NCBI GenBank assembly: GCA_029860345.1
Contig: JAOUBJ010000018.1
Span: forward strand, 1-64,000
DNA length: 64,000 nucleotides
Direction of reading: 5' to 3'
Origin: Candidatus Zixiibacteriota bacterium
Lineage (GTDB): Bacteria; Zixibacteria; MSB-5A5; GN15; FEB-12
Positions 12,281 through 58,588 of the stretch are shown one piece after another. The notes under the pieces were generated by a model. That model was not told the origin of the DNA. It searched no databases and saw nothing but the letters and a program-made list of their open reading frames with translations. The position numbers and the translations under genes are program-made. The number at the start of each line of letters is the position of its first letter. Within the stretch, counting starts at the first letter, position 1.

Positions 12281-12309
12281 TTGACAACTAGCCCATCTAT
12301 ACCTATATT
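12281..12309 (+). promoter_or_regulatory. Promoter for the dockerin protein gene at 12619
   Basis: Perfect TTGACA (12281-12286), 17-base spacer and TATATT (12304-12309). It predicts a leader of about 300 nt before the ATG at 12619. The leader contains a tiny open frame at about 12520-12573 and ends with AGGAGG. The last 60 nt weakly resemble the leaders at 45706-45765 and 49433-49490. The remainder of the 571-nt gap between 12048 and 12618 shows nothing else I can support. Confidence 0.6.
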
Positions 12310-12618
12310 GGCTCTCGGACGATGGACGACAAACACAGATCGACTCCTTAGGGGTCCAAAACTTCTTTCCGGGTATAGCTGTTCTAGTACTTCGAGTTCG
12401 TACTGATTAGGTGTCGGTGCGGATGTTACAAGCAGACTTACTTATACTATACGGAATTAACTGCTTCGAAGAAATGTCATAAGAAGAAGGCGAGTCTCGC
12501 TGAGCGCGTGCGTTCGGTCATGGCGGCCACTAACACTCTGTTTGCGGGAGTGCTCCTATTGAGCCTTGGCTAAGGGTTAGCAGAAGTAGGACGATCGAAT
12601 CTCGATTAGGAGGATTGA

Positions 12619-13950
12619 ATGGCTCTCGGAATGAAGTTTACTGGACTCGTTAGAACGACCTTGATGGTCGGAGTTCTGGCCCTGTTGGTGTTGGCCTGCC
12701 CCACGGCCTACGGTCAATTACCTGACCTGATTGTACAAGTCGGCGATACCACCGCTGTGTCTGAAGCCCAAAACACGGTTGTTTCAGTGTATCTGTCCAA
12801 CTACCATGACACCGTCGCCGGATTTAACATCTGGCTGCAATTGGATCGGCCCGATATCCTGATATTCCAAACCAATGTAGATAGTACTATCGACACCACC
12901 AGGTGGCTTTGTCTGGATTATGATCCTGTCGTCACCGACTCATGTGTCGACTCCATTCACGTTACGGGTGACTCGATTTTTTGGCGGTGTGATGTTTGGG
13001 AAGGCCCGATTTGTACAGACTCCACAATGGTACCGGCTGATTCTACTCACGACTGGTCACATCCGGCCGAGTGGGACTGGTTTAATGTCGATACCAACGA
13101 GGTGCTGGTCGGCAGCATTGATCCTGTCGGCACATTGGTCGAGGATTGGGAATGGGTAGACGCCCGCTCGCTCTCCGGCTATGGAACCGATCTGAATATT
13201 GCCGGTATCGCCGATCTTCCCGAGCCACCCTCCACTCCCGGAATCGCTCCTCAGCAGGGCGGGCTTTTGATAAAGCTGCTGGCCGATGTGTTGAGCATAC
13301 CGGATACTTTGGTGGACCGCGAAGTTAACATGCTGATCCAATCGAATTTCCTGGCTCACTTCAACTTCTCCCGGCCCGATGGCACCTCGATCGGTATTCT
13401 CCAGGCCGAGGTTCCCGACACCAACTACTGGTTCTGCGAAATGTGGGCCGGCAACACCTGCCTGACCTGGAAAAGGGTCTCATCGCCGCCGGCCGACTCT
13501 ATGGAGATCGGTGTCGACACAGTGTCGTATATAGACACTGTCAATGTCTGGTTGGCCGATGGCTCCCTGACTATCGACCCGCCGCCCGACGGCAAGTGCT
13601 GCTGGGATGATAACCCTGAGGATTCGGTCAGACTTTGTTCCAATAATATAGAATGGGCCTGCGATACCCTGCCGGACAGCAAGTGGTCAAATGGCGCCGA
13701 CTGCGCCGTGGCCGATCCATGTCCGCTGGGAATCTGCGGTGATGTCGATGCCTCTGGCTTATGGCCACCCGATATTTCCGATCTGGTATATTTGGTAGAC
13801 TATATGTTTGTCGGCGGCCCGGTACCCGAGCCCATCTGGACAGCCGACATGGCTGACTGTAATGGAGCCGTTGATATCTCGGACCTGGTGTATCTGGTCG
13901 ACTTCATGTTCTTAGCCGGTCCCCAACCATGCGATAACTGTGTGAAATGA
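12619..13950 (+). CDS. Exported cohesin-like protein with C-terminal dockerin
   Basis: 443 residues. A signal peptide of about 32 residues ends in TAYGQ. Residues about 37-240 form a beta-sandwich resembling cohesin-type domains (valued opening PDLIVQVGDTTAV, then VVSVYLSNYHDTVAGFNIWL). Residues about 325-372 are a cysteine-rich linker starting KCCWDDNPED and ending CPLGICG. Residues 374-437 are a dockerin pair built on DISDLVYLVDYMF and DISDLVYLVDFMF, each preceded by an Asp/Asn calcium loop. Family knowledge: dockerins bind cohesins through calcium-stabilised helices. The ATG follows AGGAGG. It is the first gene of the exported-protein locus and likely a scaffold component. The binding partner cannot be told from sequence. 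Confidence 0.93.
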   Translation: MALGMKFTGLVRTTLMVGVLALLVLACPTAYGQLPDLIVQVGDTTAVSEAQNTVVSVYLSNYHDTVAGFNIWLQLDRPDILIFQTNVDSTIDTTRWLCLDYDPVVTDSCVDSIHVTGDSIFWRCDVWEGPICTDSTMVPADSTHDWSHPAEWDWFNVDTNEVLVGSIDPVGTLVEDWEWVDARSLSGYGTDLNIAGIADLPEPPSTPGIAPQQGGLLIKLLADVLSIPDTLVDREVNMLIQSNFLAHFNFSRPDGTSIGILQAEVPDTNYWFCEMWAGNTCLTWKRVSSPPADSMEIGVDTVSYIDTVNVWLADGSLTIDPPPDGKCCWDDNPEDSVRLCSNNIEWACDTLPDSKWSNGADCAVADPCPLGICGDVDASGLWPPDISDLVYLVDYMFVGGPVPEPIWTADMADCNGAVDISDLVYLVDFMFLAGPQPCDNCVK

Positions 13951-13978
13951 GAATAACAAGGTAGACATATTTGTAAGC

Positions 13979-14007
13979 GGCTGTCCTCACCTTCGGGTGG
14001 GGCGGCC
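13979..14007 (+). other. Stable UUCG hairpin after the gene at 12619
   Basis: GGCTGTCCTCACC (13979-13991), loop TTCG and GGTGGGGCGGCC (13996-14007) form a long stem with one bulged base and a G-U pair. There is no T run after it, so it is not a normal intrinsic terminator. It may stabilise a processed end or belong to the leader of the next gene, which starts 240 nt downstream. Confidence 0.6.
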
Positions 14008-14067
14008 AGAACCCTTAACTCTAAAAGTAAAGATGGAAAGGAGGACTCTTAAAAGAGGTACTAACTT

Positions 14068-14223: not shown

Positions 14224-14244
14224 CGAAGTAATTAGGAGAACAAA

Positions 14245-16812
14245 ATGAAACGCATTTCCTTGATGCTTGCATTGTTCTTGACCCTTTCATTTGGCATGGC
14301 CTTTGCACAAGGTAACGGTAGCTCGGTTAACCTGGACGCTGTTGACGGTCTCCAGGGCGGTGAAATCCCCACTAACCTAGGTGCTGACGTTACTTTCCAC
14401 TTTGGCTATACTAACGGCGACGGCGCCAACAAGGCCAAAGGTATCACCAACGGTTACTCCCTCAGTGCTACTGGTGGAGCGACCTGGACTAACGGCGCAA
14501 ATGGCGACGAGTTCAGCTTCGGCCCGGCCCCGGGCAACTTTGACCTCGTTTGGTCAGTCAACACCTTCAGTTGGGATGGCGCCATGTCTGATACCATCGG
14601 TTTCGGTGGTTCGGTCATGCTCGGCCCCGGTCTGCCTCCAGGCTATTCCGGCCCGGCTGTATACTTCACCGTGAACTTCGGTACCGGTGGTGGTTTCGAT
14701 AACGAAACCTTCTGTGTTGACTCCGCCTACTACCCGCCGTCGGGTACCTGGATGTGGGCCTACGGTTCGACCGTTGGTTCCTTCCCGCCTAGCTGGCAGG
14801 GTCCGCACTGCTTTGGACTCATTGATGTTCCGAACCTGTGTCCGGACTTCACTGCTGCTCCGACCTCCGGTGGTGGCGATCACTGCGACCTCGTTGTCCT
14901 GCAGTACGCTGCTACGGATTTCGAAGGCGATCCGATCACCTTCTCCGTGACCGCCGGTGTTGGTTCTATTGACGCCAACAGTGGTCAGTATACCTATGCT
15001 CCCACTCTGGCTGACGTAGGTGCTTCTCTGGGTGCTACCATTCTCGCCGACGACGGCCTGCATGGTGGAGCCTGTAACACTGTCGATCTGGTCCTGAACT
15101 TCACCAATGTGGCTCCCACCATCGTTTGTTGCGCTGGTGTGGTTCCGATTGGTCAGGGTAACACCGGTTCACAGTGTTTCTCGACTAACGACGAAGACTG
15201 CGACCCGTCCACCGTTTCTCTGGGCAACATCAGCCCGACCCCGGCCGGTAATATCTACATCAGCGGCAACAATGTTGTCTTTGAAACTGATCCGACCGAC
15301 GGTGGCGCCGCAGGCACTATCTACACAGTCGAAGTTTGCGTCACCGATGGCGTGGACGAAAACTGCTGTGTGGTAGAGTTCAACGTTTTGACCGTTGAGC
15401 CGTTTGAAGTCCAGATCGAGAAGACCCACAATACCCTACAGGGTATGCATGTAATCGTCGACGTCACTCTGAACAAGGGTTCAGAGGAAATGGGCGGTTA
15501 CGACATCCTGATCGCTTATGACGCTTCGGCTCTACACTTCCAGGCCGCCATCCCCGGCGACTTCCACACCCAGTGTGGTTGGGAGTATTTCAACTACCGC
15601 TTTGGCCCCAACGGCAACTGCGGTAACCAGTGCCCGAGCGGACTGCTCCGCGTGGTTGCGATTGCTGAGACCAACAATGGTCCCAACCATCCGCTCTGCC
15701 TCAAGATCGATCCGCTACCGGCCGTCCTGTTCTCACTCGACTTTGTGGTCAGCAATGACCGTACTCTCGAGTGCATGTACGTGCCGATCCGCTTCTACTG
15801 GGCGGACTGCGGTGACAACAGTATCGCCTACCATCCGGCAGACGATCCGCTGTCTTCGGTCCAGGGTGTTTCCCGTTATGTCATCGACTTTGACCTCATC
15901 GGTCATATCGAAGACATGTTCACTGGCTTCCCGACCTACACCGGTGTCCAGAGCGAATGTCTGGAAGGTGGCGGTCCCGACAAGCCGGTTCCGATTCAGT
16001 TCGTTGACTTCCTGAACGGTGGTGTGGACATTGTATGTGCCGACTCCATCGATGACCGTGGCGACATTAACCTCAACGGTAACTCCAACGAAATTGCTGA
16101 CGCTGTGCTGTTCAGCAACTACTTCGTTCATGGTATCGGCGTGTTTAATGTCAACTACCAGGGTCAGGTCGCTGCGACTGACGTGAACGCTGATGGTCTG
16201 ACTCTCAGTGTTGCCGACCTCGTCTACCTTATTCGTATCATCGTCGGTGATGCCAATCCGTACCCGAAACTGGGTGCCGAGGCTGCCTCATACGCTTACG
16301 AGAATGGTGTAATGTCTGTCGACTCAAAGATGGGCGCCGCCTTTGTCGTGATCGAAGGCAATGTGAATCCGACCCTCCTGGCTACCGAAATGGAAATGAA
16401 CTATGCCTTTGACGGCCGTAACACTCGCGTCTTGGTTTCCAAGATCGACCGTGTCGGCTTTGAAGGAAGTTTCCTCCAGTTCGACGGCCGCGTGGTCAGC
16501 GTCGAGTTTGCCACTTATGATGGCACTCCCGTTGCCAAGACGGTAATTCCGCGCAGCTACAGCCTGCATCAGAACTACCCGAACCCGTTCAACGGAATGA
16601 CCAAGATCGCCTTCGGTATGCCGTTTGGTGGTGACTACTCCCTTACCATTTACAACGTAACTGGTCAGAAAGTCGCCAACTTCTCAGGCTCCGCCGATGC
16701 CGGTCAGATCACAGTTGACTGGGATGCCTCCAACCAGGCCTCAGGTGTCTACTTCTACAAGCTGGATACCGATGACTTCACCGATACCAAGAAAATGGTA
16801 TACTTGAAGTAA
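14245..16812 (+). CDS. Exported protein: GITNG-type domain, cadherin-like, cohesin-like, dockerin-like and sorting domain
   Basis: 855 residues in a clear order. Signal peptide 1-22 (ends MAFAQ). Residues about 23-190 are a domain also found at the N-termini of the proteins at 55959 and 57071 (KGITNGYSL, CVDSAYYPPSGTWMWA, GPHCF). About 200-385 holds two cadherin-like sandwiches with FEGDPITFSVTAG. About 390-600 resembles a cohesin. About 604-670 is a divergent dockerin pair (GDINLNGNSNEIADAVLF, DVNADGLTLSVADLVYL). Residues 771-855 are a sorting domain with QNYPNPFNGMTKIAFGMP and the end TKKMVYLK. Carrying both a possible receptor and a dockerin, it could link scaffold proteins together at the surface. 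The ATG follows AGGAG. Confidence 0.93.
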   Translation: MKRISLMLALFLTLSFGMAFAQGNGSSVNLDAVDGLQGGEIPTNLGADVTFHFGYTNGDGANKAKGITNGYSLSATGGATWTNGANGDEFSFGPAPGNFDLVWSVNTFSWDGAMSDTIGFGGSVMLGPGLPPGYSGPAVYFTVNFGTGGGFDNETFCVDSAYYPPSGTWMWAYGSTVGSFPPSWQGPHCFGLIDVPNLCPDFTAAPTSGGGDHCDLVVLQYAATDFEGDPITFSVTAGVGSIDANSGQYTYAPTLADVGASLGATILADDGLHGGACNTVDLVLNFTNVAPTIVCCAGVVPIGQGNTGSQCFSTNDEDCDPSTVSLGNISPTPAGNIYISGNNVVFETDPTDGGAAGTIYTVEVCVTDGVDENCCVVEFNVLTVEPFEVQIEKTHNTLQGMHVIVDVTLNKGSEEMGGYDILIAYDASALHFQAAIPGDFHTQCGWEYFNYRFGPNGNCGNQCPSGLLRVVAIAETNNGPNHPLCLKIDPLPAVLFSLDFVVSNDRTLECMYVPIRFYWADCGDNSIAYHPADDPLSSVQGVSRYVIDFDLIGHIEDMFTGFPTYTGVQSECLEGGGPDKPVPIQFVDFLNGGVDIVCADSIDDRGDINLNGNSNEIADAVLFSNYFVHGIGVFNVNYQGQVAATDVNADGLTLSVADLVYLIRIIVGDANPYPKLGAEAASYAYENGVMSVDSKMGAAFVVIEGNVNPTLLATEMEMNYAFDGRNTRVLVSKIDRVGFEGSFLQFDGRVVSVEFATYDGTPVAKTVIPRSYSLHQNYPNPFNGMTKIAFGMPFGGDYSLTIYNVTGQKVANFSGSADAGQITVDWDASNQASGVYFYKLDTDDFTDTKKMVYLK

Positions 16813-17377: not shown

Positions 17378-18820
17378 GTGAGAGTTTTGAGGATCATAGT
17401 CACGTTTTTGATGCTTGGGTCGGTTGTGACCTGTATGGTGGTGGCCGAAACCACCGACCGACAGGCAAGCGCCGACCTGGCATACACTCTGTGGCTTGAT
17501 ACGGTACATGTTTATCCGGGCGAGAGTGTCGGATTCGATATCAACCTGACCAACTCAGGACCGGTCGGGTCCTTCAATCTTCTGATTAAATACGATCCCT
17601 CTGCCGTCTGGCCGGTTAACCTGACCTTGGAAAACACGCGAGCAGCCGATTTTGAGTACTTCGAGTACACGTACAACGAAGCCGGCCGACCGGGCGAGGT
17701 CAGACTGATCGGTATATCCGAACTGGGTGCCGGACCGCCATTGGCCGCCACAGCTTTGCCGCCGGGTGATGGTTCGCTGGCTCGGATTACCTTCACCGTG
17801 GCCAATACTCTTGATCTGGCTGGTTTGTACATCCCGGTCAGGTTTGTCTTTCACGACACACCGATCAACGACGACAATACTCTCACCGACGACTCAGGTG
17901 TCAAAATCGGCCAGACCGAGATCGAGTACTATGATGGATTCATTGCCGTCCGCGAGATGGGCGAAGTGAATCTCGGGGATGTCAATATCAACGGCTTCGC
18001 CTACGAAGTCTCAGACTACGTTTATTTCTCAAACTATTTTGAGAATCCCAACGCCTACCCCATGAACGCTCTGCAACTGGCCAACTCCGATATGAACCTC
18101 GACCACATTCCGGCCACCATATCCGACTTGATTACGCTCATAAACAAGATCATGTCCGGCGCAAAAGCTTCACAAGCCGCCGGCGGATCATACGACCTGA
18201 CCGCAACCATCGAGTCCCGATCCACTCAGACCGCAACCATAGTTGGCTACCAAACCGACTTTGAGGTTGGAGGCATCTTTCTGGCGCTTCGAACCTCACA
18301 GCCGGTGGACTTGCAGAGTATCGAGAACCTGAACCAGAATATGAGTATCCGTCTCCTCACCGAAGGAGCTCAGACCCGGCTGTTTATTTATAGCCCGGAT
18401 GGACACAGTATGCCCGCGGGGTCCAACGACTTTCTGAAAATCAACGGACTGACAGGTGTGGAGATAACATCGATGGATCTTGCCGGCGCCGATGGGCGCA
18501 CGGCCATGGTATCGTTTGCTCCGACGGCTGCGCCACGGCCGGAGGACTTCACCTTGTTTCAGAACTATCCCAATCCGTTCAATCCGGCCACTCAGATCGA
18601 CTTTGGTCTGAAGGTGGCATCGGATGTCCGGCTAACCGTCTATGATTTGTTGGGACGCCAGGTAATGACTCTCCTCGACAGCCGCTTGGATGCCGGTCGA
18701 CACAGCACAACCTGGAACGGACGCGACCAAAACGGACAGGTCGTCTCTTCAGGCGTTTATTTTTATCGCCTCAAGACTCCCAACTCAGAAGAAACCCGCA
18801 AGATGATACTTTTGAAATAA
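17378..18820 (+). CDS. Exported cohesin-like protein with dockerin-like pair and sorting domain
   Basis: 480 residues. The start is GTG with GAGGT six bases upstream. Signal peptide about 1-24 (ends VVA). Residues 34-190 form a cohesin-like sandwich (VYPGESVGFDINLTNSGPVG, SFNLLIKYDPSAV). Residues 195-262 resemble a dockerin pair of a divergent kind (LGDVNINGFAYEVSDYVYF, SDMNLDHIPATISDLITL). A second sandwich covers about 275-385. Residues 391-480 are a sorting domain (LFQNYPNPFNPATQIDFGL to TRKMILLK). Architecture is a shorter version of the protein at 14245 without its N-terminal domain. The sorting domain is removed on secretion in known type IX systems; that it works the same way here is inference. 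Confidence 0.92.
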   Translation: MRVLRIIVTFLMLGSVVTCMVVAETTDRQASADLAYTLWLDTVHVYPGESVGFDINLTNSGPVGSFNLLIKYDPSAVWPVNLTLENTRAADFEYFEYTYNEAGRPGEVRLIGISELGAGPPLAATALPPGDGSLARITFTVANTLDLAGLYIPVRFVFHDTPINDDNTLTDDSGVKIGQTEIEYYDGFIAVREMGEVNLGDVNINGFAYEVSDYVYFSNYFENPNAYPMNALQLANSDMNLDHIPATISDLITLINKIMSGAKASQAAGGSYDLTATIESRSTQTATIVGYQTDFEVGGIFLALRTSQPVDLQSIENLNQNMSIRLLTEGAQTRLFIYSPDGHSMPAGSNDFLKINGLTGVEITSMDLAGADGRTAMVSFAPTAAPRPEDFTLFQNYPNPFNPATQIDFGLKVASDVRLTVYDLLGRQVMTLLDSRLDAGRHSTTWNGRDQNGQVVSSGVYFYRLKTPNSEETRKMILLK

Positions 18821-18822
18821 CC

Positions 18823-18842
18823 AGTCGCGTACCGCGACTTTT
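18823..18842 (+). terminator. Short terminator between 17378 and 18879 genes
   Basis: Perfect 7-bp stem AGTCGCG (18823-18829), loop TAC, CGCGACT (18833-18839), followed by TTT. The T run is short, so it is probably partial. The next start codon lies 37 nt downstream behind GGAGGT. Confidence 0.45.
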
Positions 18843-18878
18843 GATGAGATAATAATTGGTCCTTTTGGAGGTCATAAG

Positions 18879-21614
18879 ATGAGATTTAAGAAAATTCCCG
18901 CCATCGTACTTTTGTTGTTTCTGGCTTTTGCCGGGTCTGCTTCGGCTCAGGTGGGAGTGTATACCTGTATCAACTCGTACATCGACTGTGGACAGATTAG
19001 TAACTCTTCAGTCGACCAGGTTGCAATTCAGGATTTCGCCGGTCGCCCCGGCGACACTGTCTGGATGCCGGTTCACTTGAACACCAACGATACGGTCTCC
19101 GGCTTTCTGATTCTGGTTGAGTTCGATTCGGCCCAACTCACCCCGGTCCATTACCCTTTGGATCCGCAATATCCCGATGATACTCTCTTCGTGCAGTATC
19201 AGTTGGCCGGTGCTCTTCAGCTGGCTCAGGATCAACAGGATATTATTGATCCGAACAAGGAAGTCTTCTTTGCTCAAATCTCAACTCAGAGCGCCGACAG
19301 TGGTTTTCCTACTATTATTTGTGCTTTCAATCTCGGCTTCGGTGGCGGTATAGACTCCACCCAGACCCCGCCAAGGATGAATCCAACGACCGATTTTATA
19401 TTCCGCCTGCCCTTCCTGGCCAACCCCTCCATGCCCGATGGCGACTCGGCCAACTTCTCATACAGGGAGGTTAACGAGTTTGTGGTCACCAGCGAAGCCT
19501 TGCTCGAGGCCTTCTGTGCCGACTGCCGCCGCACCAATATGAGCGTCGACCGAGACTGCGAGGTGGAGGTCTATGACACTCTGGCCACTGTGCCGCAGTT
19601 GATAGTCGATACTTTGCTGGATACGGTCACGTGTACTTCGGTGCTCTACCCAACCACCCTTCCCGGCCAGTTCTTCGCCGATGCCACGCCGCCCCCGGAA
19701 ATCCAGAGCTTTGCATCCACCGCGCCGGGTGACTCGGTCGGTACCGGCGATGGTTTCGTACTGACCTGGACGGTAGTCAATGCCGATTCAATATTCATCA
19801 CCGGACCCAGTGTCGACTATGCTACCACCATTCTCTCTGATTTCCTGTCGGTGAATGCGCCCGCCACCCAAGGCAGCTTTACCTACACACTGACGGCGAT
19901 AAATGCAACCGATACGTCTACTGCTGTTCGCACCATGTTAGTCAAAAACCCGGATGACGACCCGCCGGATGATCCGCATCAACCGGTGATCAACGTTAAT
20001 ACTTCGCACTTCATTGATGTCGGAAACACGCTGGTCTTTACAGTATCGGCCACCGACCCGGATGGTGATTTCGTTACCCTTGAGGCCACCGACTTACCGA
20101 CCAACGCTACTTTTCCAACAGTCACCGGCACCGGCTTAGCCTCGGGGACGTTTACCTTCACCCCGACTTTGAACCAGGCGGGTACAGAAACAGCAACTTT
20201 CCGCGCCTCCGATGGAAACACTTCCCCAACTACGGTCACTGTGCAGATTAACATTGCCGAGCCGGCTTTTGACAAACTGTTCACCTCGTCGACCGACAAG
20301 AGTGCTTCCGGTGGTATCCCCGGAGTGCCGAGCTTCCTCTTCCCGGTCAACCTTGTGACTTCGCAGACCGTATACGGCGTGCAGTTTGACTTCCTTTTCG
20401 ATGAAGCCAATTTTAACGTTAGAAACGTGCTGACCAACCATAACACGGCCGAGTACGTTATTTACAGCAACGAAGACGACTCGCCCACACCCGGAGAAGT
20501 GCGAGTGATTACCTTCGGTATGGCCAACGAACCGATCGGCACCGACGGTACAGAGGTTCTATTGATCGAGATGGAGGTAGAGTCAGGAGCCCTGCCGGGA
20601 CAGTATCCTGTCTACTTCAACTATGCCTGGGAATCAGTCAATCCCGATCCGAATTTCCCCTCGTTACCGTTGATTGCCGACACAGGTGTCGTTCAGGTCG
20701 ACATGTTTGGCGATGTAAACCTCAACCTTAATGTCGACGTTGCCGATTTGGTGAGTATAGTGGGACATATTATTGCAGCCTACACCTTGAACCAGAGACA
20801 GATCGACGCCGGTGATGTGAACTTCGACGCCTCGGTCAACGTTTTTGACTTGGTTGCAATCGTCAATTCGATACTTTCCGGTGTCCCATTGGAGGGTTCG
20901 CCGAGTTTGCTCTATGAAGATCAGTACGCCAAGGTCCAGCTTGACTTTGACGACCTACAGCAGGGGGAATCCGATCTGATAGTGGTGCGCTCCGACCTGC
21001 CGACCGACATTGCCGGTGTTGAGTTGGAAATCCTCTATGACCCGGCCACGGTCTACCTCGGTCGACCGGAGCAGGGGGAGGATGCTACCACCATGTCGAT
21101 AAACTCATCCAACAACGGCGGTGGGAAACTCAAAGTACTGCTGCACTCAGGCAACCCGTTCGCCGCCGGCGGCAGTATCAATTCAGGCGAGGTGGAGTTG
21201 GTAACGATACCGATCACCACCAACGAAGCCGTCGCCAGAGGTGATACCACCCAGATCAAGCTCAGCCAGGCGCTGTTGTCCACCTCGTCGGCTACCGCCG
21301 TTCGGGTCGAAGGGCTGGATGCACCGTTGCCGACCTCGTTCAGAGTCGCCCAGAACTATCCCAATCCGTTCAACCCGTCGACCACCATTGAATTCTCGTT
21401 CGGACCCATTGGAAAGAAAGTCAGGCTGGAAATCTTCAACATTATTGGACAAAAGGTAACCACTTTGGTCGATGACTTCCTCTCACCAAGGGACTATAGC
21501 GTGGAATGGAATTCCACCGACGACAACGGACAAAAAGTTGCCTCCGGGGTCTATCTGTACAAACTACAGGTTGGCACGGAAAGCCAGACCAAAAAAATGC
21601 TGCTCTTGAAGTAA
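18879..21614 (+). CDS. Large exported protein: cohesin-like domains, cadherin-like domain, dockerin-like pair, sorting domain
   Basis: 911 residues. Signal peptide 1-24 (ends ASAQ). Residues about 40-230 form a first cohesin-like sandwich (GRPGDTVWMPVHLNTNDTV). About 268-360 is an Ig-like domain; about 368-465 is a cadherin-like repeat (GNTLVFTVSATDPDGDFVTL); about 466-606 is a second cohesin-like domain; 608-668 is a dockerin-like pair (GDVNLNLNVDVADLVSIV and GDVNFDASVNVFDLVAIV). Another sandwich (690-800) precedes the sorting domain at 821-911 (QNYPNPFNPSTTIEFSF to TKKMLLLK). GGAGGT lies seven bases before the ATG. Only 22 nt separate it from the giant gene downstream, so they are likely co-transcribed and this may be its surface partner. 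Confidence 0.93.
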   Translation: MRFKKIPAIVLLLFLAFAGSASAQVGVYTCINSYIDCGQISNSSVDQVAIQDFAGRPGDTVWMPVHLNTNDTVSGFLILVEFDSAQLTPVHYPLDPQYPDDTLFVQYQLAGALQLAQDQQDIIDPNKEVFFAQISTQSADSGFPTIICAFNLGFGGGIDSTQTPPRMNPTTDFIFRLPFLANPSMPDGDSANFSYREVNEFVVTSEALLEAFCADCRRTNMSVDRDCEVEVYDTLATVPQLIVDTLLDTVTCTSVLYPTTLPGQFFADATPPPEIQSFASTAPGDSVGTGDGFVLTWTVVNADSIFITGPSVDYATTILSDFLSVNAPATQGSFTYTLTAINATDTSTAVRTMLVKNPDDDPPDDPHQPVINVNTSHFIDVGNTLVFTVSATDPDGDFVTLEATDLPTNATFPTVTGTGLASGTFTFTPTLNQAGTETATFRASDGNTSPTTVTVQINIAEPAFDKLFTSSTDKSASGGIPGVPSFLFPVNLVTSQTVYGVQFDFLFDEANFNVRNVLTNHNTAEYVIYSNEDDSPTPGEVRVITFGMANEPIGTDGTEVLLIEMEVESGALPGQYPVYFNYAWESVNPDPNFPSLPLIADTGVVQVDMFGDVNLNLNVDVADLVSIVGHIIAAYTLNQRQIDAGDVNFDASVNVFDLVAIVNSILSGVPLEGSPSLLYEDQYAKVQLDFDDLQQGESDLIVVRSDLPTDIAGVELEILYDPATVYLGRPEQGEDATTMSINSSNNGGGKLKVLLHSGNPFAAGGSINSGEVELVTIPITTNEAVARGDTTQIKLSQALLSTSSATAVRVEGLDAPLPTSFRVAQNYPNPFNPSTTIEFSFGPIGKKVRLEIFNIIGQKVTTLVDDFLSPRDYSVEWNSTDDNGQKVASGVYLYKLQVGTESQTKKMLLLK

Positions 21615-49490: not shown

Positions 49491-52400
49491 ATGACAAAGA
49501 GAATTTCGACGATTCTGATCCTCTCCTTACTAGTGGTCGCTTTTGTGGCCCTGTCGGCTCAGGCCGTTAAATCGCCCGAAGAGTCGCCGCGGGTAATCAA
49601 CCCGCTGGTGTACAAGTCACTCCAGTACGCATTCCCGGACGCGACCAACTCAGGTACGCTCAACGCCAACCCGGCCACCGAGCTGGGCGATGGCGTCTCG
49701 CTGGGTAACTCAGTAAGTACCTCTCCGCCGTGGCCCGGTGTCAAGATTGGTGATACTTACTACGACTACCAGCATAACGGTCGTATGACCCGCATGGTAG
49801 ACTGGGGCAATGACGTAGCCGGCGGTGAAGGCTTCATGGTCCACTTTCTGTGGACGCGTTTGGCCACCGAAGTGACGGAAAACCGCCATTATGCCTACAA
49901 CGTCTACTACGCCGGCGGTGGCCAGGCCGGCACATTCCTCGGTCAGGTTAAGATTCAGCCCGACGGTGAATACGCCGGATATGTTTCTCTGGATGTCACT
50001 CAGGACGGCCGCGCCGTTCTCGGTGGTCACAACAACCAGGGTTCAGGTTACCAGCCTCATATTTACTGGGACTTCGGCCCCGGTTTCGGCTTCTTTGGTA
50101 TGAATCGTCGTGTACCGGACACTACTTTGGCCGCCGGTACCGCTCAGGATCCCAACGACTCCCTGAAGTCGGCTATCTGGCCGTCAATTCGCTATCATGA
50201 GACGCCGGGCAAGGCCGATCCGGTCACCCACGTCTTCACACAGGTTTCCGAACCGGGCGCCGGTGATGCACAGGCTATCATCTACTTCCGTAAGGTCGGT
50301 GAGAATGACACCGGCGAATGGGATTTCCCGCCATACGTTCCTGACACGGTGTTCGACATCGCGCAGGATGTGGCTTGCTCCGAGGTCACCGGCAAGGTCG
50401 CTCTGACCTGGATTGCCAACCGTCCCGACGACGGTGACTGCGACACCTGTTCCAGCCAGTCCGGCCAGAACTTTGTCCAGTGGGACAACGACATCTACTA
50501 TCAGATATCAAACAACTACGGCGCCCCGGGCTCCTGGCTGCCGCGTGTCAACCTGACTCAGAATCAGGATGGCGTCGATGGCCACCGCCCTTACACCGAC
50601 TTGCAGTCCCTGATCACTTCAGACGAAGACCTGCACATCGTGTGGGGTGCACGTTTCTGGCCGGCCGACGCCAACAGTGGCGGCCAGGCCGGTCTCTTGC
50701 GTGGCCGTGTTTTCCATTGGGGTGAGAATCTGGGCTTTGTGAAAGCTACCGGTAATATCCGTACCGCGGCCAATCTCGAATGGGACCAAACCACGTGTAA
50801 CGGTGGCGCCTGGCAGCTTAACGGCTCCAAGATGAACGTCTCAGAATGCGACGGCAAGTTGTATGTTCTTTGGACCCAGTTCAATGATGTCGTCAACGGT
50901 ATCGAAGAAGACTGTCACAACCGCGCCTTCGGTGCCGGTGGTGATGCCTTCGGTTCGGCCAACGGCGACCTCTATATGGCCGTCTCCGACGACGGTGGTC
51001 TCACCTGGGATATCCCTCGCAATCTGACCAACACCCGCACACCGCACTGCGACTCTGCGACCGGCGCGGTTGGCGAGTGCCGTAGTGAGCACTGGTCCTC
51101 CATGAATCGTCATGGTACCAATCTGGGCGGTGACATGAGCAGTGCTGAAGTTGTCGATCCTACCGGCAGCTACACCGGCGCTTACTTCCTCGATGTACAG
51201 TACATCGGCGATCCCGATCCCGGTGGTATCGTGCAGGACGAAGGCACCTGGCAACAAGCCGACGTGCGTTGGTTCCGTCTGCCTTGTGTCGAGCCGGTTC
51301 CGACCTCTTGCTGGTGTCCCAGCGGCTGGACCGGCATCGACTATCCTGAGTACACCAAACATGGTACTCAGTACGACAAGCCGCTGACTGTCGAGAACTT
51401 CGGTAACGTGCCTGCCAACTTTGAAACACAGTTGAACGAAGATCCTGGCCCTTACTCCGGTTGGCTGTCCGTTTCTCCTTCACTTGAGTCTGGAACCATC
51501 AACTCAGGCGCCAATAACACCATTAGCGGTACTGTTACCATCAACGAAGGTGGTACAATCAACGCTCCCGGTACGATTGTGAACCTGACGGGTAACATGA
51601 CTGTCACCGGTAACATGAACGGCTCGCCCTATGTGTTCCCGATCAACTTCTTCATCGTTGACACAATCGTGCCGCCGGTATTCGACACAATTACCACCGG
51701 TTGTTTCTCGCTGGTCGTATCCAACATGGGTAACTGGGGTAACCAGGGCGCCGGTCATGTCAATCTTGACTTCTTTGACTTTGGTGACTGCGACGACCTG
51801 GAAGCTGCTGAGGATACTATCCCCGGCGACGCCACGGTCTATGCCTACGACGCCTCCCCGGTCATCTGCTGGCCGGACGGTGACTCGGTCATCTGCAACT
51901 GGTCGATCTTCGGTACCACTTATATTTCCGACGAAGGCTTCGTGCCGGTCGGTCACCTTGCGTCGGTGCCGTTCTTCCGCGGCATGTCCTGCGACTCCAT
52001 ACCAGAGTCTCTTTTCATCGACGATACCTACTTTTCTGAGTTCACAACTCATGACACCGGTATCCTGATCGAGAAGTGGTGGGTACATCCGGATCAAAGC
52101 GCTTCCCAGGGCTCCAATTTCATAATTCAGATCCTGCGGATCACCGTGCTTGACAGTACGACGCATACCGATCTGAACATCGGTGAAGCCATCGACTGGG
52201 ATATCCCGGCCGACACTGCATCGCGCAACCGTTCCGGCTTTGAGGCCGGCGAGCGGCTGGTCTACCTACAGGGTTCTGAGTACAATGAAGACCCCGAAGA
52301 GTGTCAGGAGAACTCAGACCGCTACGGTGGTATTGAGCTTCTCAGGACAATGGAGATCGATGGAGTTGATACTACCGAGAGCTCCGATCCTTACGGCGCC

Positions 52401-52901
52401 TGGTCCGGTAGTAACGCCCTTTGGGTCTACCCGGCCGGTGGCTTTATCCCGGAACAGTTAGACAGCTTGATGACCGCTCGCGAGGGATATGTCCTTTCGG
52501 ATTCACTCGATGCCGATCTGCACTCGGTTATGACCTTCAAATCCGGCTACACGCTTACCCCGACCACAACGCTCTGGGTTTTCAAATGTTTGATCACCAG
52601 TCGTTTGGGCTTTGCGGCCTTTATCGCCTCGGCGCAGGAGTGTCATGATTATTTTGATGAATACGTGCCCAAGCCGACTTGTAGTTGCTGCGTAGGCATT
52701 CGCGGTGACCTTAACGGTGACGGTAGGATCGACATCTCCGATCTCGTCTGGTTAGTGGACTGGATGTTCACTGGTGGACCGCCGCCGCCCTGCCTCGAAC
52801 AAGCCGATGTAAACGCCGACGGCGTGATCGATATTTCCGATCTCGTCTGGCTGGTCGACTTCATGTTCACTGGTGGTCCGCCGCCGATCCCATGTCCGTA
52901 G
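49491..52901 (+). CDS. Exported propeller-like protein with C-terminal dockerin, paralogue 2
   Basis: 1,136 residues. Same layout as the protein at 45766: signal peptide 1-25 (ALSAQA), propeller-like part, sandwich, cysteine-bearing part and dockerin pair at about 1070-1135 (DISDLVWLVDWMFTGGP, DISDLVWLVDFMFTGGP). I choose ATG 49491, which has GAAAGGAG upstream and gives the same N-terminus as the paralogue; a longer open frame back to 49377 runs through the leader. The two proteins differ most where the propeller meets the sandwich (a CWCPSGW motif here) and in about 60 residues after GFVPVGH, which may mark a binding surface. It arose by a tandem duplication including flanking control DNA. 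Confidence 0.94.
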   Translation: MTKRISTILILSLLVVAFVALSAQAVKSPEESPRVINPLVYKSLQYAFPDATNSGTLNANPATELGDGVSLGNSVSTSPPWPGVKIGDTYYDYQHNGRMTRMVDWGNDVAGGEGFMVHFLWTRLATEVTENRHYAYNVYYAGGGQAGTFLGQVKIQPDGEYAGYVSLDVTQDGRAVLGGHNNQGSGYQPHIYWDFGPGFGFFGMNRRVPDTTLAAGTAQDPNDSLKSAIWPSIRYHETPGKADPVTHVFTQVSEPGAGDAQAIIYFRKVGENDTGEWDFPPYVPDTVFDIAQDVACSEVTGKVALTWIANRPDDGDCDTCSSQSGQNFVQWDNDIYYQISNNYGAPGSWLPRVNLTQNQDGVDGHRPYTDLQSLITSDEDLHIVWGARFWPADANSGGQAGLLRGRVFHWGENLGFVKATGNIRTAANLEWDQTTCNGGAWQLNGSKMNVSECDGKLYVLWTQFNDVVNGIEEDCHNRAFGAGGDAFGSANGDLYMAVSDDGGLTWDIPRNLTNTRTPHCDSATGAVGECRSEHWSSMNRHGTNLGGDMSSAEVVDPTGSYTGAYFLDVQYIGDPDPGGIVQDEGTWQQADVRWFRLPCVEPVPTSCWCPSGWTGIDYPEYTKHGTQYDKPLTVENFGNVPANFETQLNEDPGPYSGWLSVSPSLESGTINSGANNTISGTVTINEGGTINAPGTIVNLTGNMTVTGNMNGSPYVFPINFFIVDTIVPPVFDTITTGCFSLVVSNMGNWGNQGAGHVNLDFFDFGDCDDLEAAEDTIPGDATVYAYDASPVICWPDGDSVICNWSIFGTTYISDEGFVPVGHLASVPFFRGMSCDSIPESLFIDDTYFSEFTTHDTGILIEKWWVHPDQSASQGSNFIIQILRITVLDSTTHTDLNIGEAIDWDIPADTASRNRSGFEAGERLVYLQGSEYNEDPEECQENSDRYGGIELLRTMEIDGVDTTESSDPYGAWSGSNALWVYPAGGFIPEQLDSLMTAREGYVLSDSLDADLHSVMTFKSGYTLTPTTTLWVFKCLITSRLGFAAFIASAQECHDYFDEYVPKPTCSCCVGIRGDLNGDGRIDISDLVWLVDWMFTGGPPPPCLEQADVNADGVIDISDLVWLVDFMFTGGPPPIPCP

Positions 52902-53301: not shown

Positions 53302-55692
53302 ATGACAAACAGATGGACAAAGGTGCTCTTTGGTCCGCTTCTTCTGACAGCGGCGCTGTGGGCTATGCCGACTGATGGACATAGCGTGATAAGCCAGAGC
53401 GGGAATACCCCCAAACCCTACATAATCGAGGGTAAGGTGACGGTTGTCTTCGAAGAAGGCGTCGACCTCTCTCGGCTCAACAAGGGTTTCGGTCGAGTGA
53501 GTTTTGCTCTGGGCAGTCTCGATCCGATTCTGGATCAGTTTTCGGTCACCGAAGCCCATGAGATTTTCCCCGGCTCCAAGCCGCGAGAGATAAACTCAGG
53601 CTTGCCGGATTACACCCGGTTTTATGAGTTATCCTTTCCGGAGGAGACACCTGTCCGCGAAGTTGTGGATGCCTTGCTGCAAAACCCGAATGTTAGAACG
53701 GCCGAGCCGGTCTGGGCCATGCCGTTGGCAGTCACACCCGACGATCCGCAATTCAACAGTCAATGGCACATGACCTCGCTGAACGTCAATGTCCGGGCCG
53801 CCTGGGACCGGGAGGCCGGCTCTGATTCTATTATCGTGGCCGATGTCGATTCCGGCGTTAACTATAACCACTCGGACCTCAGAGACAACATCTGGGTCAA
53901 CCCGGGTGAGGATATCGACGGCGACGGCGTACCTTACGATATCGATGATCTCAACGGTATCGACGACGACGGCAATGGTACCGTCGACGATCTGATCGGC
54001 TACGACTTTCTCACCGGTATCGGCAGTGCCGCAGCCTACGAAGATAATCACACGCCGGACCCCGACCCACAAGATCGTAATGGTCACGGCACCCATGTCG
54101 GCGGCATCATGGCCGAAGTCACCAACAACGGCGTTAACGGCTCAGGCATGGCCGGTGGCTGGTTGGGCGGTAACCGCGCCTATCGCGGCGTGCGCATTAT
54201 GTGCCTCCGGGTCGGCGCCACCGGCTCCGACGGTAACGGTTACGTTAACTCCAACAACTGCGGCACCGCCCTCCAGTATGCTGCGCGCAACGGCGCCAAG
54301 ATTGCAAACGCCAGTTGGGGTTCCTCCGGTACCACTACTATGAACGCAGCCATGCAGCTCTGCGATTCGGCCGGTATGACGGTGACTCACGCCGCCGGCA
54401 ACGACAACATCGATCAGCCCGACTATATGGATTACGATCCTTTCGGTTTCGAGGTGTTGTCGGTAGCTTCAGTCGAAAGCAACGACTGCAAAACCGGCTT
54501 CTCCAACTTTGGTTACTGGGTTGATATCTCAGGTTACGGCTCAGCCATCCTTTCCACTGCGTCCAACAGCAATGCCGCACCCATTATGGCCACTTACTGG
54601 GGTACGTCGATGGCTTCACCTCATGTTGCGGGTCTGGCTGCCTTGATACGCTCCCAGATGCCCAGCCTGACCAAGTACCAGGTGGACTCGATAATTATCA
54701 ACACCGCCCACGACGTATATGCCGGATCATGCAACTCAAGCTACATAGCCAAGCTCGGCTCCGGACGAATCGACGCCGAAGCAGCCATGGCCGGACTGGC
54801 CTGCGCCCTGTTTACCTCCGATGTGGATCAAGGCGAAGCGCCGCTGACCGTCAATTTCAGCGATCAGTCGCCGTACTCACCTACCTCATGGGATTGGAGC
54901 TTCGGCACCGGTGATATATCTTCGGATCAAAACCCCACATACGTTTACAACGACCCGGGTGTTTACGATGTCTCTCTGATCGTCGACGACACCAGCTCCC
55001 TTGGACCGGGTGAGGAACACTTGACCAATTACATCTGGGTCACGGCCGATACCGTCGACATTGCCGATGTGGTGGCCCCAGCCGGCTTCCAGGCGGTTCT
55101 ACCGGTCTACATGCACAATACCGCCCAGATCAAGGAAATCCAGTTCAGTTTCTACATGGAAAACACGCTGGGTGTTACTTTCGACAGTATTTCGACGGAA
55201 GGTCTTCGCACCGCATATTTTGAGAGCATCACCAACAACTCGCTGGTGACAAACAAAAAATACGGTTTCCTTTTGAAGACAGATGATCCGGCCAGCGGTG
55301 GCTCCAACTACCTACAGCCCGATACCGGAGCCATCCTTAACATCTTTTTCAACGTGCCTCCCAGCGCTACGGGCGGCGAGGTAATGGCTGTGGACTCGAT
55401 AACCGCCTCCGGCAAGCGGCCGCGCTATGAAGCCCTCTGGGGCGAGTTGGTTCCGGTTTTCAGCGCCGGTTCTATCGAAATCCAAGGCTGCATTCGCGGA
55501 GATGTAGACTGCTCCGGCGGCGACATCAACATCGCCGATCTGGTTTACCTGGTGGATTTCATGTTTAACGCCGGCCCAGCCCCCGATCCGTATTTTGTGG
55601 GGAACATCGACGGCCTGCTGTTGATCGACATCGCCGATTTGGTCTATATGGTCGACTTTATGTTCAACAGTGGCCCCCCGCCACCTCCGTGA
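53302..55692 (+). CDS. Subtilisin-like serine protease with PKD, cohesin-like domain and dockerin
   Basis: 796 residues from ATG 53302, which gives a compact signal peptide (about 1-27); ATG 53260 would add 14 residues with a poorer ribosome site. A fervidolysin-like prodomain spans about 40-145. The S8 catalytic domain (about 150-505) has the full triad: D183 in VADVDSGV, H262 in NGHGTHVGG, S436 in GTSMASPHVAG, and an Asp-rich calcium loop (DIDGDGVPYDIDDLNGIDDD). A PKD domain follows at about 510-590, a cohesin-like sandwich at 600-720 and a dockerin pair at 730-796 (NIADLVYLVDFMF, DIADLVYMVDFMF). It is likely secreted, tethered by its dockerin, and could process neighbouring exported proteins or feed on protein. 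Confidence 0.95.
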   Translation: MTNRWTKVLFGPLLLTAALWAMPTDGHSVISQSGNTPKPYIIEGKVTVVFEEGVDLSRLNKGFGRVSFALGSLDPILDQFSVTEAHEIFPGSKPREINSGLPDYTRFYELSFPEETPVREVVDALLQNPNVRTAEPVWAMPLAVTPDDPQFNSQWHMTSLNVNVRAAWDREAGSDSIIVADVDSGVNYNHSDLRDNIWVNPGEDIDGDGVPYDIDDLNGIDDDGNGTVDDLIGYDFLTGIGSAAAYEDNHTPDPDPQDRNGHGTHVGGIMAEVTNNGVNGSGMAGGWLGGNRAYRGVRIMCLRVGATGSDGNGYVNSNNCGTALQYAARNGAKIANASWGSSGTTTMNAAMQLCDSAGMTVTHAAGNDNIDQPDYMDYDPFGFEVLSVASVESNDCKTGFSNFGYWVDISGYGSAILSTASNSNAAPIMATYWGTSMASPHVAGLAALIRSQMPSLTKYQVDSIIINTAHDVYAGSCNSSYIAKLGSGRIDAEAAMAGLACALFTSDVDQGEAPLTVNFSDQSPYSPTSWDWSFGTGDISSDQNPTYVYNDPGVYDVSLIVDDTSSLGPGEEHLTNYIWVTADTVDIADVVAPAGFQAVLPVYMHNTAQIKEIQFSFYMENTLGVTFDSISTEGLRTAYFESITNNSLVTNKKYGFLLKTDDPASGGSNYLQPDTGAILNIFFNVPPSATGGEVMAVDSITASGKRPRYEALWGELVPVFSAGSIEIQGCIRGDVDCSGGDINIADLVYLVDFMFNAGPAPDPYFVGNIDGLLLIDIADLVYMVDFMFNSGPPPPP

Positions 55693-55958: not shown

Positions 55959-56867
55959 ATGATATCGAAAGTACTCTTGCTGGTCGGAGCGTCACTGTTG
56001 TGCACAGGAATAGCGATGGGACAATCCGGCAACATCACCGTTGATCTTGTAACCGGACTGCAGGGGTCGTCAGCCGACACCCTGGCTCTCGGCGGTGAGG
56101 CGACGTTCTACATCAGAGTGAACAACAATACCGGCTTCGCTTTAGATGGAATCACCAACGGCTACAGAGTTTATTCAGACGACGGCGCCAATTGGGACAC
56201 GGTGAAGACGGCTTCGCTGGGAACGATTACAGCGGCCATGTTCGACGGCAGTTCTGGATTGCAGATGTATCCAAATGACCAGGCCGGTCAGGTGAACGGA
56301 AGCATTTCCGACACCGTCGGCTTTGGTGGATTCAGGTTCTTCTCAGCTGGCTTGCCCGCGGGCTTCGATGACACCGCCTACACAATTACGATCGGTCCTA
56401 TCGGGGGGGGATCTATTGTGAACACGACAACTATCTGTGTCGATTCCGCCTATTATGGATCGGCAGGCACATGGAAATGGGCGGCCGCCGGTGGCAATGA
56501 CTTCTTCCCGGCCTGGGGCGGTCCTTATTGCTACTTTGTCGAGCCTGACCCGGCCGATGTTAAGGTGACCGACGATAACAGCCTCCCCACCACCTTTTCA
56601 CTCGGACAAAATTATCCCAACCCGTTCAACCCGAGCAGCAGTATTGCATTCGATCTCCCAATCGTTACTCATGTGCGGCTGACCGTATACAATGTGTTGG
56701 GGCAAGAAGTCACCACGTTGGTCGACGAGAAACTCGGACAAGGAAGTTATGAGGCAGAGTGGAACGGTCGTTCATCCTCCGGCAACCATGTCTCCTCGGG
56801 CATCTACTTCTATCGCCTACATACCGAACAGTTCACACAGACCAAGAAAATGGTTTTGCTGAAGTAG
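55959..56867 (+). CDS. Small exported protein: GITNG-type domain plus sorting domain
   Basis: 302 residues. Signal peptide 1-21 (ends GIAMGQ). Residues about 22-190 are the domain shared with the proteins at 14245 and 57071: LVTGLQG, LDGITNGYRVYSDDGANW, DTVGFGGFRFF, AGFDDTAYTITIGPIGGG, CVDSAYYGSAGTWKWA. Residues 212-302 are the sorting domain (LGQNYPNPFNPSSSIAFDLP to TKKMVLLK). It is the minimal form of this family in the window, so the shared domain can stand alone as cargo. Strong promoter, CGGAGG ribosome site and its own terminator indicate an independent, well-expressed unit. Function unknown. Confidence 0.92.
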   Translation: MISKVLLLVGASLLCTGIAMGQSGNITVDLVTGLQGSSADTLALGGEATFYIRVNNNTGFALDGITNGYRVYSDDGANWDTVKTASLGTITAAMFDGSSGLQMYPNDQAGQVNGSISDTVGFGGFRFFSAGLPAGFDDTAYTITIGPIGGGSIVNTTTICVDSAYYGSAGTWKWAAAGGNDFFPAWGGPYCYFVEPDPADVKVTDDNSLPTTFSLGQNYPNPFNPSSSIAFDLPIVTHVRLTVYNVLGQEVTTLVDEKLGQGSYEAEWNGRSSSGNHVSSGIYFYRLHTEQFTQTKKMVLLK

Positions 56868-56891
56868 ACAGGCTCTTTTACGGCGAATCAC

Positions 56892-56918
56892 AACCCCCGG
56901 CCAACCGGGGGTTTTTTT
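56892..56918 (+). terminator. Intrinsic terminator after the gene at 55959
   Basis: AACCCCCGG (56892-56900), loop CCAA, CCGGGGGTT (56905-56913), then further T residues to 56918. Confidence 0.92.
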
Positions 56919-56966
56919 ATCGAGATTTGTGCCTGCTCGCTACTACGTTACCGTCCCGGTTTCACG

Positions 56967-56994
56967 TTGACATAGTGCCTGGAACCGGTATCTT
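56967..56994 (+). promoter_or_regulatory. Promoter of the gene at 57071
   Basis: TTGACA (56967-56972), 16 bases, TATCTT (56989-56994). The leader would be about 70 nt. The -10 resembles those at 45342 and 55801 in starting with TATC. Confidence 0.5.
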
Positions 56995-57070
56995 ACAACC
57001 CTTGATCCGGTTGGATTGTGTATGAACCTGCGGCCTGTCTGAGGTCACTTCGATTTGGAGCCATGATTAG

Positions 57071-58588
57071 ATGAAATCTGTTTCTTTGCCTCTTTTGCTA
57101 CTGCTTCTGATGCTCTGTTCGTCCGGTGCGGCCGCCGACTTCGCTATCTCACTTGACAGCGTGGTGGGCTTGTATGACCCCAATACTCTTAATACCGATC
57201 AGCAGATAACCTTCTATATTCGCTTGACCAATGACGGTGCGTATGCCATGAAAGGTATCACCAACGGTCTTCACGTCTATTCTCCAAACGGCGCCACCTG
57301 GGATACGACGGTAGGTGACAATGATCTCGGAACTATCGGCTCAAACGAATTCGATCTGCTTTGGACGATTAATAGGTTCGGGCTTACCGGCTCCGGAGCA
57401 GACACCCTGGGTTTTGGTGGGATTCGTGGTGCCTCAGGTACCGGCCTGCCGGCAGGATTCGATGATACCGCCTACACCATCACCATAGGGCCGATACTTG
57501 CTCAGGACCACGGTAAGACTGTCTGCCTGGACTCAGCGTTCTACCCACCCTCCGGACCATGGCTGTGGGCGGGGGGAACTGTCGACAGCGTTTTGGTGGG
57601 TGATCGTCTGCCCGCCTGGGATGGACCTCATTGTTTTACAGTTTTGGATTCCAACGGGACACAGCGTTTGGTCCCAACTCCGGGCGTGGTGAAGTTTACA
57701 ACGCAAGAAGGGGTCCAACCGGTCAACCAGTCGCTCGAAATTGATGCCTTCGATACCGGCAACCCGCTTAGCATCTCGGTGGCCAATAACCAGGCCTGGC
57801 TTCAGGTTGATCCGCAGGCTGGCGGTACGACACCGATCTCACTAACCATCTCAGCCGATATCACCGGGCTGTCGGCCGGTCACTATTTCGACACGATAAC
57901 AGTAACGGCCGCGGGGGTGGCCAATTCGCCCCTGGAGGTTCCGTGTATTGTGACGGTGCAGCCGTTGATTTCATCAACTCCGTTTTGGGGGTTTCTCTCC
58001 TACGCCAAAGACGGCAACCAGGCCCCACCGGAGACATTGATCGTAACCGCGACCGATGGTGTGAGCGCCATACCCTTCGCGGTCACCACCGATTCGGCTT
58101 GGCTGATGGTCACGCCGACTTCGGGGACTACTCCGGAGACACTGATTGTACAATCCGACGGTCGTAACCTTGCGGTCGGTATGGCGCACGCCGACAGTGT
58201 CGTTTTGACGCCCACCGGTGGAAGTTACTCGCCGTTAAGACAGCAGTACATGGTCCATATCATTGACCTGGTCACAGCCGTCAAGGATGTTTCAGGTGAC
58301 AACCGCCCCACCACCTTCGCCCTCGGTCAGAACTATCCCAATCCATTCAACCCGAACACTCAGATAGCTTTCGAGTTGCCCTCAAGATCGCAGGTTAGTC
58401 TGGTTGTTTACAATGTTCTCGGTCGGCAAGTGGCCACCTTGGTCAACGAACAGTTATCGCAGGGCAGCTATGTGGCCGAGTGGAACGGCCTCACTTCAAG
58501 CGGTGCCCCGGTGTCCTCCGGAGTCTACTTTTATCGCCTCCACACCGACAGCTTCACTCAGACCAAGAAGATGGTGCTGCTGAAATAA
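57071..58588 (+). CDS. Exported protein: GITNG-type domain, two BACON-like domains, sorting domain
   Basis: 505 residues. Signal peptide about 1-22 (ends GAAA). Residues 23-195 repeat the domain of 14245 and 55959 (MKGITNGLHVYSPNGATW, LPAGFDDTAYTITIGPI, CLDSAFYPPSGPWLWA, GPHCF). Two BACON-like sandwiches follow at about 205-298 (NNQAWLQVDPQAGGT) and 300-395 (DSAWLMVTPTSGTTPETL); in known proteins this domain sits in polysaccharide-binding or surface proteins. Residues 412-505 are the sorting domain (LGQNYPNPFNPNTQIAFELP to TKKMVLLK), very close to that of 55959. GGAG lies eleven bases before the ATG. No terminator is evident after it. It closes the exported-protein locus. Confidence 0.92.
   Translation: MKSVSLPLLLLLLMLCSSGAAADFAISLDSVVGLYDPNTLNTDQQITFYIRLTNDGAYAMKGITNGLHVYSPNGATWDTTVGDNDLGTIGSNEFDLLWTINRFGLTGSGADTLGFGGIRGASGTGLPAGFDDTAYTITIGPILAQDHGKTVCLDSAFYPPSGPWLWAGGTVDSVLVGDRLPAWDGPHCFTVLDSNGTQRLVPTPGVVKFTTQEGVQPVNQSLEIDAFDTGNPLSISVANNQAWLQVDPQAGGTTPISLTISADITGLSAGHYFDTITVTAAGVANSPLEVPCIVTVQPLISSTPFWGFLSYAKDGNQAPPETLIVTATDGVSAIPFAVTTDSAWLMVTPTSGTTPETLIVQSDGRNLAVGMAHADSVVLTPTGGSYSPLRQQYMVHIIDLVTAVKDVSGDNRPTTFALGQNYPNPFNPNTQIAFELPSRSQVSLVVYNVLGRQVATLVNEQLSQGSYVAEWNGLTSSGAPVSSGVYFYRLHTDSFTQTKKMVLLK

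Follow-up and report, generated by a model that had tools for sequence, protein, structure and literature searches.

The window analysed here is a stretch of 64,000 nucleotides from a Candidatus Zixiibacteriota bacterium (assembly GCA_029860345.1, contig JAOUBJ010000018.1, positions 1 to 64,000), and between positions 12619 and 58588 it carries eleven plus-strand open reading frames in a row (12619, 14245, 17378, 18879, 21637, 37667, 45766, 49491, 53302, 55959 and 57071, referred to by their start positions), in which dockerins, cohesins and the sorting tails of the type IX secretion system (T9SS) are combined. The reading that we favour, and that we hold to be moderately probable on sequence grounds, is that these genes belong to a non-cellulosomal cohesin–dockerin assembly on the cell surface, held there by type IX secretion. 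It would rest on anchored proteins that display cohesins and on proteins that end in a dockerin, the latter bearing a signature specific to their genome.

Dockerins, Sorting Tails and Candidate Client Proteins

A dockerin profile seeded with the window dockerins located pairs at the C-terminus of 12619, 37667, 45766, 49491 and 53302, and internal pairs in 14245, 17378 and 18879; Pfam Dockerin_1 matched 49491, and several of these dockerins lie below the Pfam cut-off yet match the profile at 1e-13 or better. They consist of two calcium-loop plus helix repeats, as in the dockerin type I family (PF00404). The Por_Secre_tail family was found above its Pfam cut-off in 14245, 17378, 18879, 55959 and 57071, and a signal-peptide-like N-terminus can be read directly on all eleven proteins. 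The initial annotation, which described eleven consecutive exported plus-strand proteins, five ending in a dockerin pair and five in a sorting domain, three of the latter with an internal dockerin, is borne out on each of these counts.

The genome (4.76 Mb) contains at least 49 Pfam dockerin matches and 10 cohesin matches at E 0.01, together with 64 sorting-tail matches and a homolog of SprA (SprA_N, E 8e-14), SprA_N being the only component of the secretion machinery searched for. A census of 40 stretches of the genome plus the window, which is partial and whose counts are lower bounds, gave at least 74 dockerin pairs in 68 proteins, 51 of them within 50 residues of the C-terminus; the 23 internal ones mostly lie 183–240 residues before the C-terminus, and in those examined a further domain and then a sorting tail follow. 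L057, L058 and L064:5707-7833 encode paralogs of 14245 whose internal dockerin is asymmetric in the same way; the L064 copy ends in a dockerin at the place where its paralogs end in a sorting tail. In addition, a tandem of four small dockerin proteins of 211–284 aa is found at L100:302-3214 (G000 contig 10).

According to Pfam, the 49 C-terminal dockerin proteins include subtilases, M28 and M6 peptidases, a PhoD phosphatase and arylsulfotransferase-like proteins, as well as PQQ and FG-GAP propellers, PKD, beta-helix, nidogen-like and Ig-repeat proteins. No glycoside hydrolase (GH) or carbohydrate-binding module (CBM) is among the families listed for these 49 proteins (25 of 42 families listed), and again none was found when 36 of the 49 were rescanned with full family lists at 1e-6. 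Among the clients named in the initial annotation, the giant repeat protein and the protease do carry client-type dockerins, whereas the description of 45766 and 49491 as propellers found no counterpart in Pfam or in a PDB sequence search.

Cohesin Domains and a Minimal Receptor Candidate

Pfam Cohesin (PF00963) was matched above its curated cut-off by 17378 and 18879, the best stretch of 18879 being residues 702–805, in the domain after the dockerin. The N-terminal domain of 17378 gives a Pfam Cohesin match in 32 of 34 orthologs, and its profile retrieves solved type II and anchoring cohesins. In the structural model of 17378, residues 32–177 resemble solved type II cohesins (Z 10.5, 127 aligned, 2.7 Å), as the initial annotation had suggested for this N-domain; residues 273–381 likewise resemble solved cohesins, with 2xdh as the best match (Z 11.6, 102 aligned, 2.4 Å), and residues 388–480 resemble the C-terminal domain (CTD) of PorU (Z 11.1), the CTD also matching PorZ. 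Since each of these regions matches solved structures, the chain can be read as cohesin, dockerin, cohesin and CTD, and 17378 is predicted to adopt the cohesin fold and is assigned to PF00963.

For the other proteins of the locus, 14245 shows a weak Pfam match (E 0.019) and aligns with the 17378 cohesin at 99.5% in hhalign; the domain before the dockerin of 53302 reaches 97.1% against the same cohesin in profile–profile comparison, and the domain after the dockerin of 17378 aligns with the corresponding domain of 18879 (hhalign 95.6%). The N-terminal domain of 12619 has no Pfam Cohesin match of its own; its paralog L063 has a weak PF00963 match (E 1e-4 over 42 residues), and 12619 itself reaches 53% in hhalign, which makes it, as far as its sequence suggests, at best a divergent cohesin. 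Thus, of the five cohesin-bearing proteins proposed initially, 17378, 18879, 14245 and 53302 stand, while for 12619 the resemblance is weak. Orthologs from many families carry the locus domains in corresponding positions and in the same order, which is more than would be expected by chance.

Outside the locus, L062:813-1661 (G000 contig 2, 102.3–103.2 kb) encodes a protein of 282 aa that consists of a signal peptide, a cohesin and a sorting tail, and nothing else. Relatives of L062 occur in 69 of 98 related genomes, and the best matches that were read, which are single-copy orthologs, all have the cohesin followed by the CTD; L062 is the simplest receptor candidate. Profile comparison between its cohesin and the last cohesin of 18879 came out empty, so that the cohesins of this genome are very divergent among themselves. 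L062 adjoins a serine/threonine kinase-like gene in the source genome. The docking system that was initially placed at the locus does have its parts there and is not confined to it: the genome as a whole encodes 64 sorting tails, L062 and no fewer than 68 proteins with dockerins.

Genome-Specific Signature of the C-Terminal Dockerins

In the source genome, the C-terminal dockerins carry D-I-[SA]-D-L-V-Y-L-V-D-[YF]-M-F-x-G-G-P in both repeats; dual-mode dockerins likewise have the same helix motif in both repeats. Other genomes have versions of their own, such as D-L-S-D-L-I-Y-L-V-N in G034 and G045 and N-I-L-D-V-S-Y-L-I-N in G056. When the bodies of the proteins compared are not homologous, their C-terminal dockerins are still 0.505 identical within a genome versus 0.38 between genomes, a difference reached in 0 of 3000 label permutations, in which proteins are taken as independent draws within genomes. 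The same test on sorting tails gave 0.494 within versus 0.486 between genomes, that is, no genome signature. Codon agreement at same-residue positions is 0.432 against 0.388 expected from codon usage, and this closeness to expectation indicates that the likeness of the dockerins does not come from recent copying.

Within the cluster, the dockerins of 12619, 45766 and 53302 share 0.38–0.48 identity with their orthologs elsewhere versus 0.54–0.61 with the remaining dockerins encoded in the cluster of their own genome. For the internal dockerins, identity between genomes is 0.69 in 14245, 0.58 in 17378 and 0.53 in 18879, and the dockerin of the giant repeat protein is intermediate, with its own pattern. 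The dockerins thus form two regimes, probably with different partners: the genome signature of the C-terminal dockerins is most simply read as a shared partner that co-evolves with them in each genome, and the ortholog-wise conservation of the internal ones suggests a fixed, probably structural partner.

Conservation of the Cluster and Co-Occurrence of Its Parts

The gene cluster is kept together class-wide. Relatives keep the order 12619, 14245, 17378, 18879 and giant repeat protein. On contigs that are long enough, this is followed by 45766, the subtilase, 55959, the glycoside hydrolase 35-like gene and gamma-glutamyltranspeptidase, although individual genomes may lack one or more of these later genes. 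The arrangement, in which the relative placing of dockerin and tail is also preserved, was found in about ten families of the order and class (f1, f2, f3, f4, f8, f9, f11, f14, f15 and partly f19), as the initial annotation had anticipated for a gene set that is not scattered; in f13, f16, f17 and f18, where contigs are partly short, only 17378-like proteins or the 17378–18879 pair were seen. Of the 132 genomes that make up the phylum sample, 89 have an ortholog of 17378, and dockerins occur in 93 of 98 relatives. The five dockerin-less relatives (G081, G082, G090, G091 and G097, from two families) also have no Pfam cohesins, no 17378 ortholog and no L062 homolog. G090 is 52% complete; the other four, from families f6 and f7, have 130–236 sorting-tail candidates, far above most dockerin-bearing relatives.

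Proposed Assembly and Alternative Explanations

In the proposed assembly, 14245, 17378, 18879 and L062 would be exported and anchored through their C-terminal domains and would thus display their cohesins. The dockerin-ended proteins, namely the giant cadherin/Ig-repeat protein, 45766, 49491, the subtilase, 12619 and dozens encoded elsewhere, would be held at the surface by these cohesins, and the internal dockerins of the anchored proteins may form a fixed structural contact or one within the complex, a second cohesin-like domain following each of them in 17378 and 18879. Dockerin-family domains are known ligands of cohesins, and the partner of the C-terminal dockerins is most likely the surface cohesins. 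What we infer is that the partner is a cohesin, which cohesins pair with which dockerins, that the assembly lies at the surface, and any part that it may play in adhesion or proteolysis. The initial division into sorting-domain receptors and dockerin clients holds in that sorting-tailed proteins do carry cohesins; it is not a clean split, since 14245, 17378 and 18879 hold internal dockerins and 53302 has both a cohesin and a dockerin.

Several observations weigh against this assembly. How dockerin proteins without a sorting tail would cross the outer membrane has no explanation in it. The model of mature 17378 has low overall confidence (pLDDT 52.7, pTM 0.31), and that of 12619, built from two sequences, shows no usable fold (pLDDT 29.5). 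In the mirror-tree analysis for the cohesin that would read the signature, the 14245 cohesin is conspicuous (13 of 1000), and so is its sorting tail (28 of 1000). The absence of dockerins and cohesins is confined to two families and may thus represent one or two evolutionary events. Members of genus g30 have 20–42 dockerins and hardly any cohesins that can be recognised: G046 has none, G050 and G053 have weak ones only, and G035 has one protein of signal peptide, cohesin and CTD.

A more specific form of the idea, which we put forward tentatively, is that in this class the C-terminal dockerin serves, in addition to the T9SS tail, as a surface address that is specific to each genome: dozens of exported proteins that lack a sorting tail would reach the surface, or remain there, by plugging into a few cohesin–CTD carriers, and might pass through the T9SS together with them; lineages without cohesins and dockerins would instead place the T9SS tail directly on 130–236 proteins.

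Among the alternatives, the modules might work within each chain only, the calcium-bound dockerin pairs clasping the adjacent cohesin-like domains and so stiffening the exported proteins. A cohesin does stand directly beside the dockerin in 14245, 17378, 18879 and 53302, and the conservation of the internal dockerins as orthologs across families (0.69, 0.58 and 0.53) is what a fixed contact would produce. However, many chains with a C-terminal dockerin, such as 37667, 45766 and 49491, have no detectable cohesin, and a genome signature across unrelated proteins is unexpected for private contacts, so that we regard this explanation as unlikely.

It is also conceivable, though in our judgement quite unlikely, that the C-terminal dockerin is an export or retention signal read by the secretion or anchoring machinery rather than by a cohesin. 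This would suit the dockerin of L064:5707-7833, which takes the C-terminal slot of its paralogs' sorting tail, the fact that dockerin-less genomes have the largest tail sets (130–236 candidates in the near-complete ones) and the retention of dockerins with few cohesins in g30; against it, the genomes without dockerins are also without cohesins, and the domains belong to a family of cohesin ligands. That a popular module has merely spread neutrally and builds no functional assembly, as dockerins in scattered, unrelated proteins might suggest, is very improbable, because synonymous positions are near saturation while helix residues are fixed, no homogenisation is seen in sorting tails from these genomes and many families share the cluster. 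Finally, a cellulosome-type polysaccharide-degrading complex, with which the domain types, the multi-cohesin scaffold-like proteins and the dozens of dockerin proteins would agree, is scarcely credible, being largely refuted by a client list in which no GH or CBM appears among the families listed.

If the favoured surface assembly is correct, it would be a modular docking layer added to type IX surface display in uncultured bacteria. Of the socket-and-plug domains with which cellulose digesters assemble enzyme complexes, the plugs are here found on an adhesin-like giant, a protease and other non-cellulases, and a role outside cellulose digestion can thus be tested: with a conserved set of parts, a minimal candidate for the receptor and a recognition code specific to each genome, a few purified domains would suffice for a direct test.

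Organization of the Locus

Table 1. Genes of the locus and their domains (positions in the window; CTD, C-terminal domain; T9SS, type IX secretion system).
Gene	Strand	Protein	Domains
12619..13950	+	443 aa, exported	Divergent cohesin-like N-domain with long insertions; symmetric C-terminal dockerin pair 13735-13929
14245..16812	+	Putative anchored scaffold protein	N-domain; cohesin ~15397-16056; internal dockerin 16057-16260; middle domain; T9SS sorting tail ~16558-16809
17378..18820	+	Putative anchored scaffold protein	Cohesin 1 17471-17908; internal dockerin 17972-18169; cohesin 2 18194-18520; T9SS CTD 18539-18817
18879..21614	+	Putative anchored scaffold protein	Weak N-terminal cohesin-like region; Big_9/cadherin-like domain; cohesin 20262-20702; internal dockerin 20706-20891; cohesin 20916-21302; T9SS tail 21336-21611
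21637..37656	+	Giant exported protein, 5339 aa	Big_9/He_PIG/cadherin-like repeats
37667..45196	+	Repeat protein, 2509 aa	He_PIG/Big_9 repeats; C-terminal dockerin 45002-45187
45766..49182	+	1138 aa, exported	C-terminal dockerin 48976-49167
49491..52901	+	Tandem paralog of 45766	C-terminal dockerin 52701-52886
53302..55692	+	Exported subtilase	S8 ~53827-54717; PKD 54817-54999; cohesin-like 55057-55494; C-terminal dockerin 55495-55683
55959..56867	+	302 aa, exported	Domain common to 14245 and 57071; T9SS tail
57071..58588	+	505 aa, exported	Shared N-domain; two BACON domains; T9SS tail

As shown in Table 1, the cluster begins with 12619, a possible adaptor whose ortholog stands at the head of the cluster in most neighbourhoods examined, and the 18879 ortholog adjoins the 17378 ortholog in nearly all relatives examined. 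Gene 21637 and the gene after it form one fused gene in relatives such as G034, G045, G022 and G094, and the dockerin of 37667 deviates from the common signature of its genome. The body of 45766 matched nothing in Pfam, and a PDB sequence search with it was also empty; its ortholog occupies the same cluster position in G034, G045 and G056, in which orthologs of 53302 are also found. Neither cohesin nor dockerin was detected in 55959. The N-terminal domain of 14245, for which no Pfam family was matched, is common to 14245, 55959, 57071 and L060 (about 165 aa, with a TNGYxxYSxxGATW-like motif). After the cluster, at 58897-63847, lie genes for a GH35/GH42-like protein, a gamma-glutamyltranspeptidase and a bactofilin; all three have homologs after the cluster in G045, and in G022 the first and the last do. 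Upstream, at 7596-9884, a right-handed beta-helix protein and a second exported protein are encoded, which stand next to the cluster also in G001 (L022).

Comparison with Known Systems

The locus resembles the clostridial cellulosome in the type II-like cohesin fold of 17378, the symmetric two-repeat dockerins, the anchored cohesins and the adaptor-like proteins with both cohesin and dockerin; unlike the clostridial cellulosome, anchoring is by a T9SS CTD, the secretion machinery is of the outer-membrane type (SprA homolog) and no cellulases were found. Among the features that define a cellulosome, cohesin scaffolds and numerous dockerin partners (51 C-terminal dockerins in the partial census) are present, and partners that are mainly plant cell wall degrading enzymes are not seen among the families listed for the 49 dockerin proteins.

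A literature search returned no paper linking Zixibacteria with dockerin or with type IX secretion. The statement of the initial annotation that no such system has been described was nevertheless too strong, given reports on Cloacimonadota (PMC8542988) and on anaerobic methanotrophic (ANME) archaea (PMC5244752). For Ca. Stygibacter of the Cloacimonadota, a 2021 study inferred a cohesin scaffold anchored through the T9SS, together with dockerins on glycoside hydrolases and on S8 and C25 peptidases (PMC8542988). The two systems share a T9SS-type CTD on a cohesin scaffold and a dockerin on an S8 peptidase, and in both the binding is inferred; Ca. Stygibacter has a single scaffoldin of 3755 aa with tandem cohesins, CBM2/CBM3 and GH18 and GH57 clients, whereas the present locus has several short cohesin–dockerin–cohesin–CTD proteins in a class-wide cluster that also encodes a giant protein of cadherin-like repeats, and no GH was found in its client list. 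ANME archaea have many cohesins and dockerins, whose function outside the cellulosome is stated as not known (PMC5244752). The archaeal likeness lies in many cohesins and dockerins without cellulases and in the Archaeoglobus fulgidus cohesin 2xdh as the best match of 17378 cohesin 2; the archaeal sets have their own surface and sorting signals, and the present gene cluster is not described there (PMC5244752). The idea of an anchored cohesin scaffold is thus already known, and what is new here is the set of short cohesin–dockerin–cohesin–CTD proteins in a class-wide cluster with a giant repeat protein, together with the genome-specific dockerin signature.

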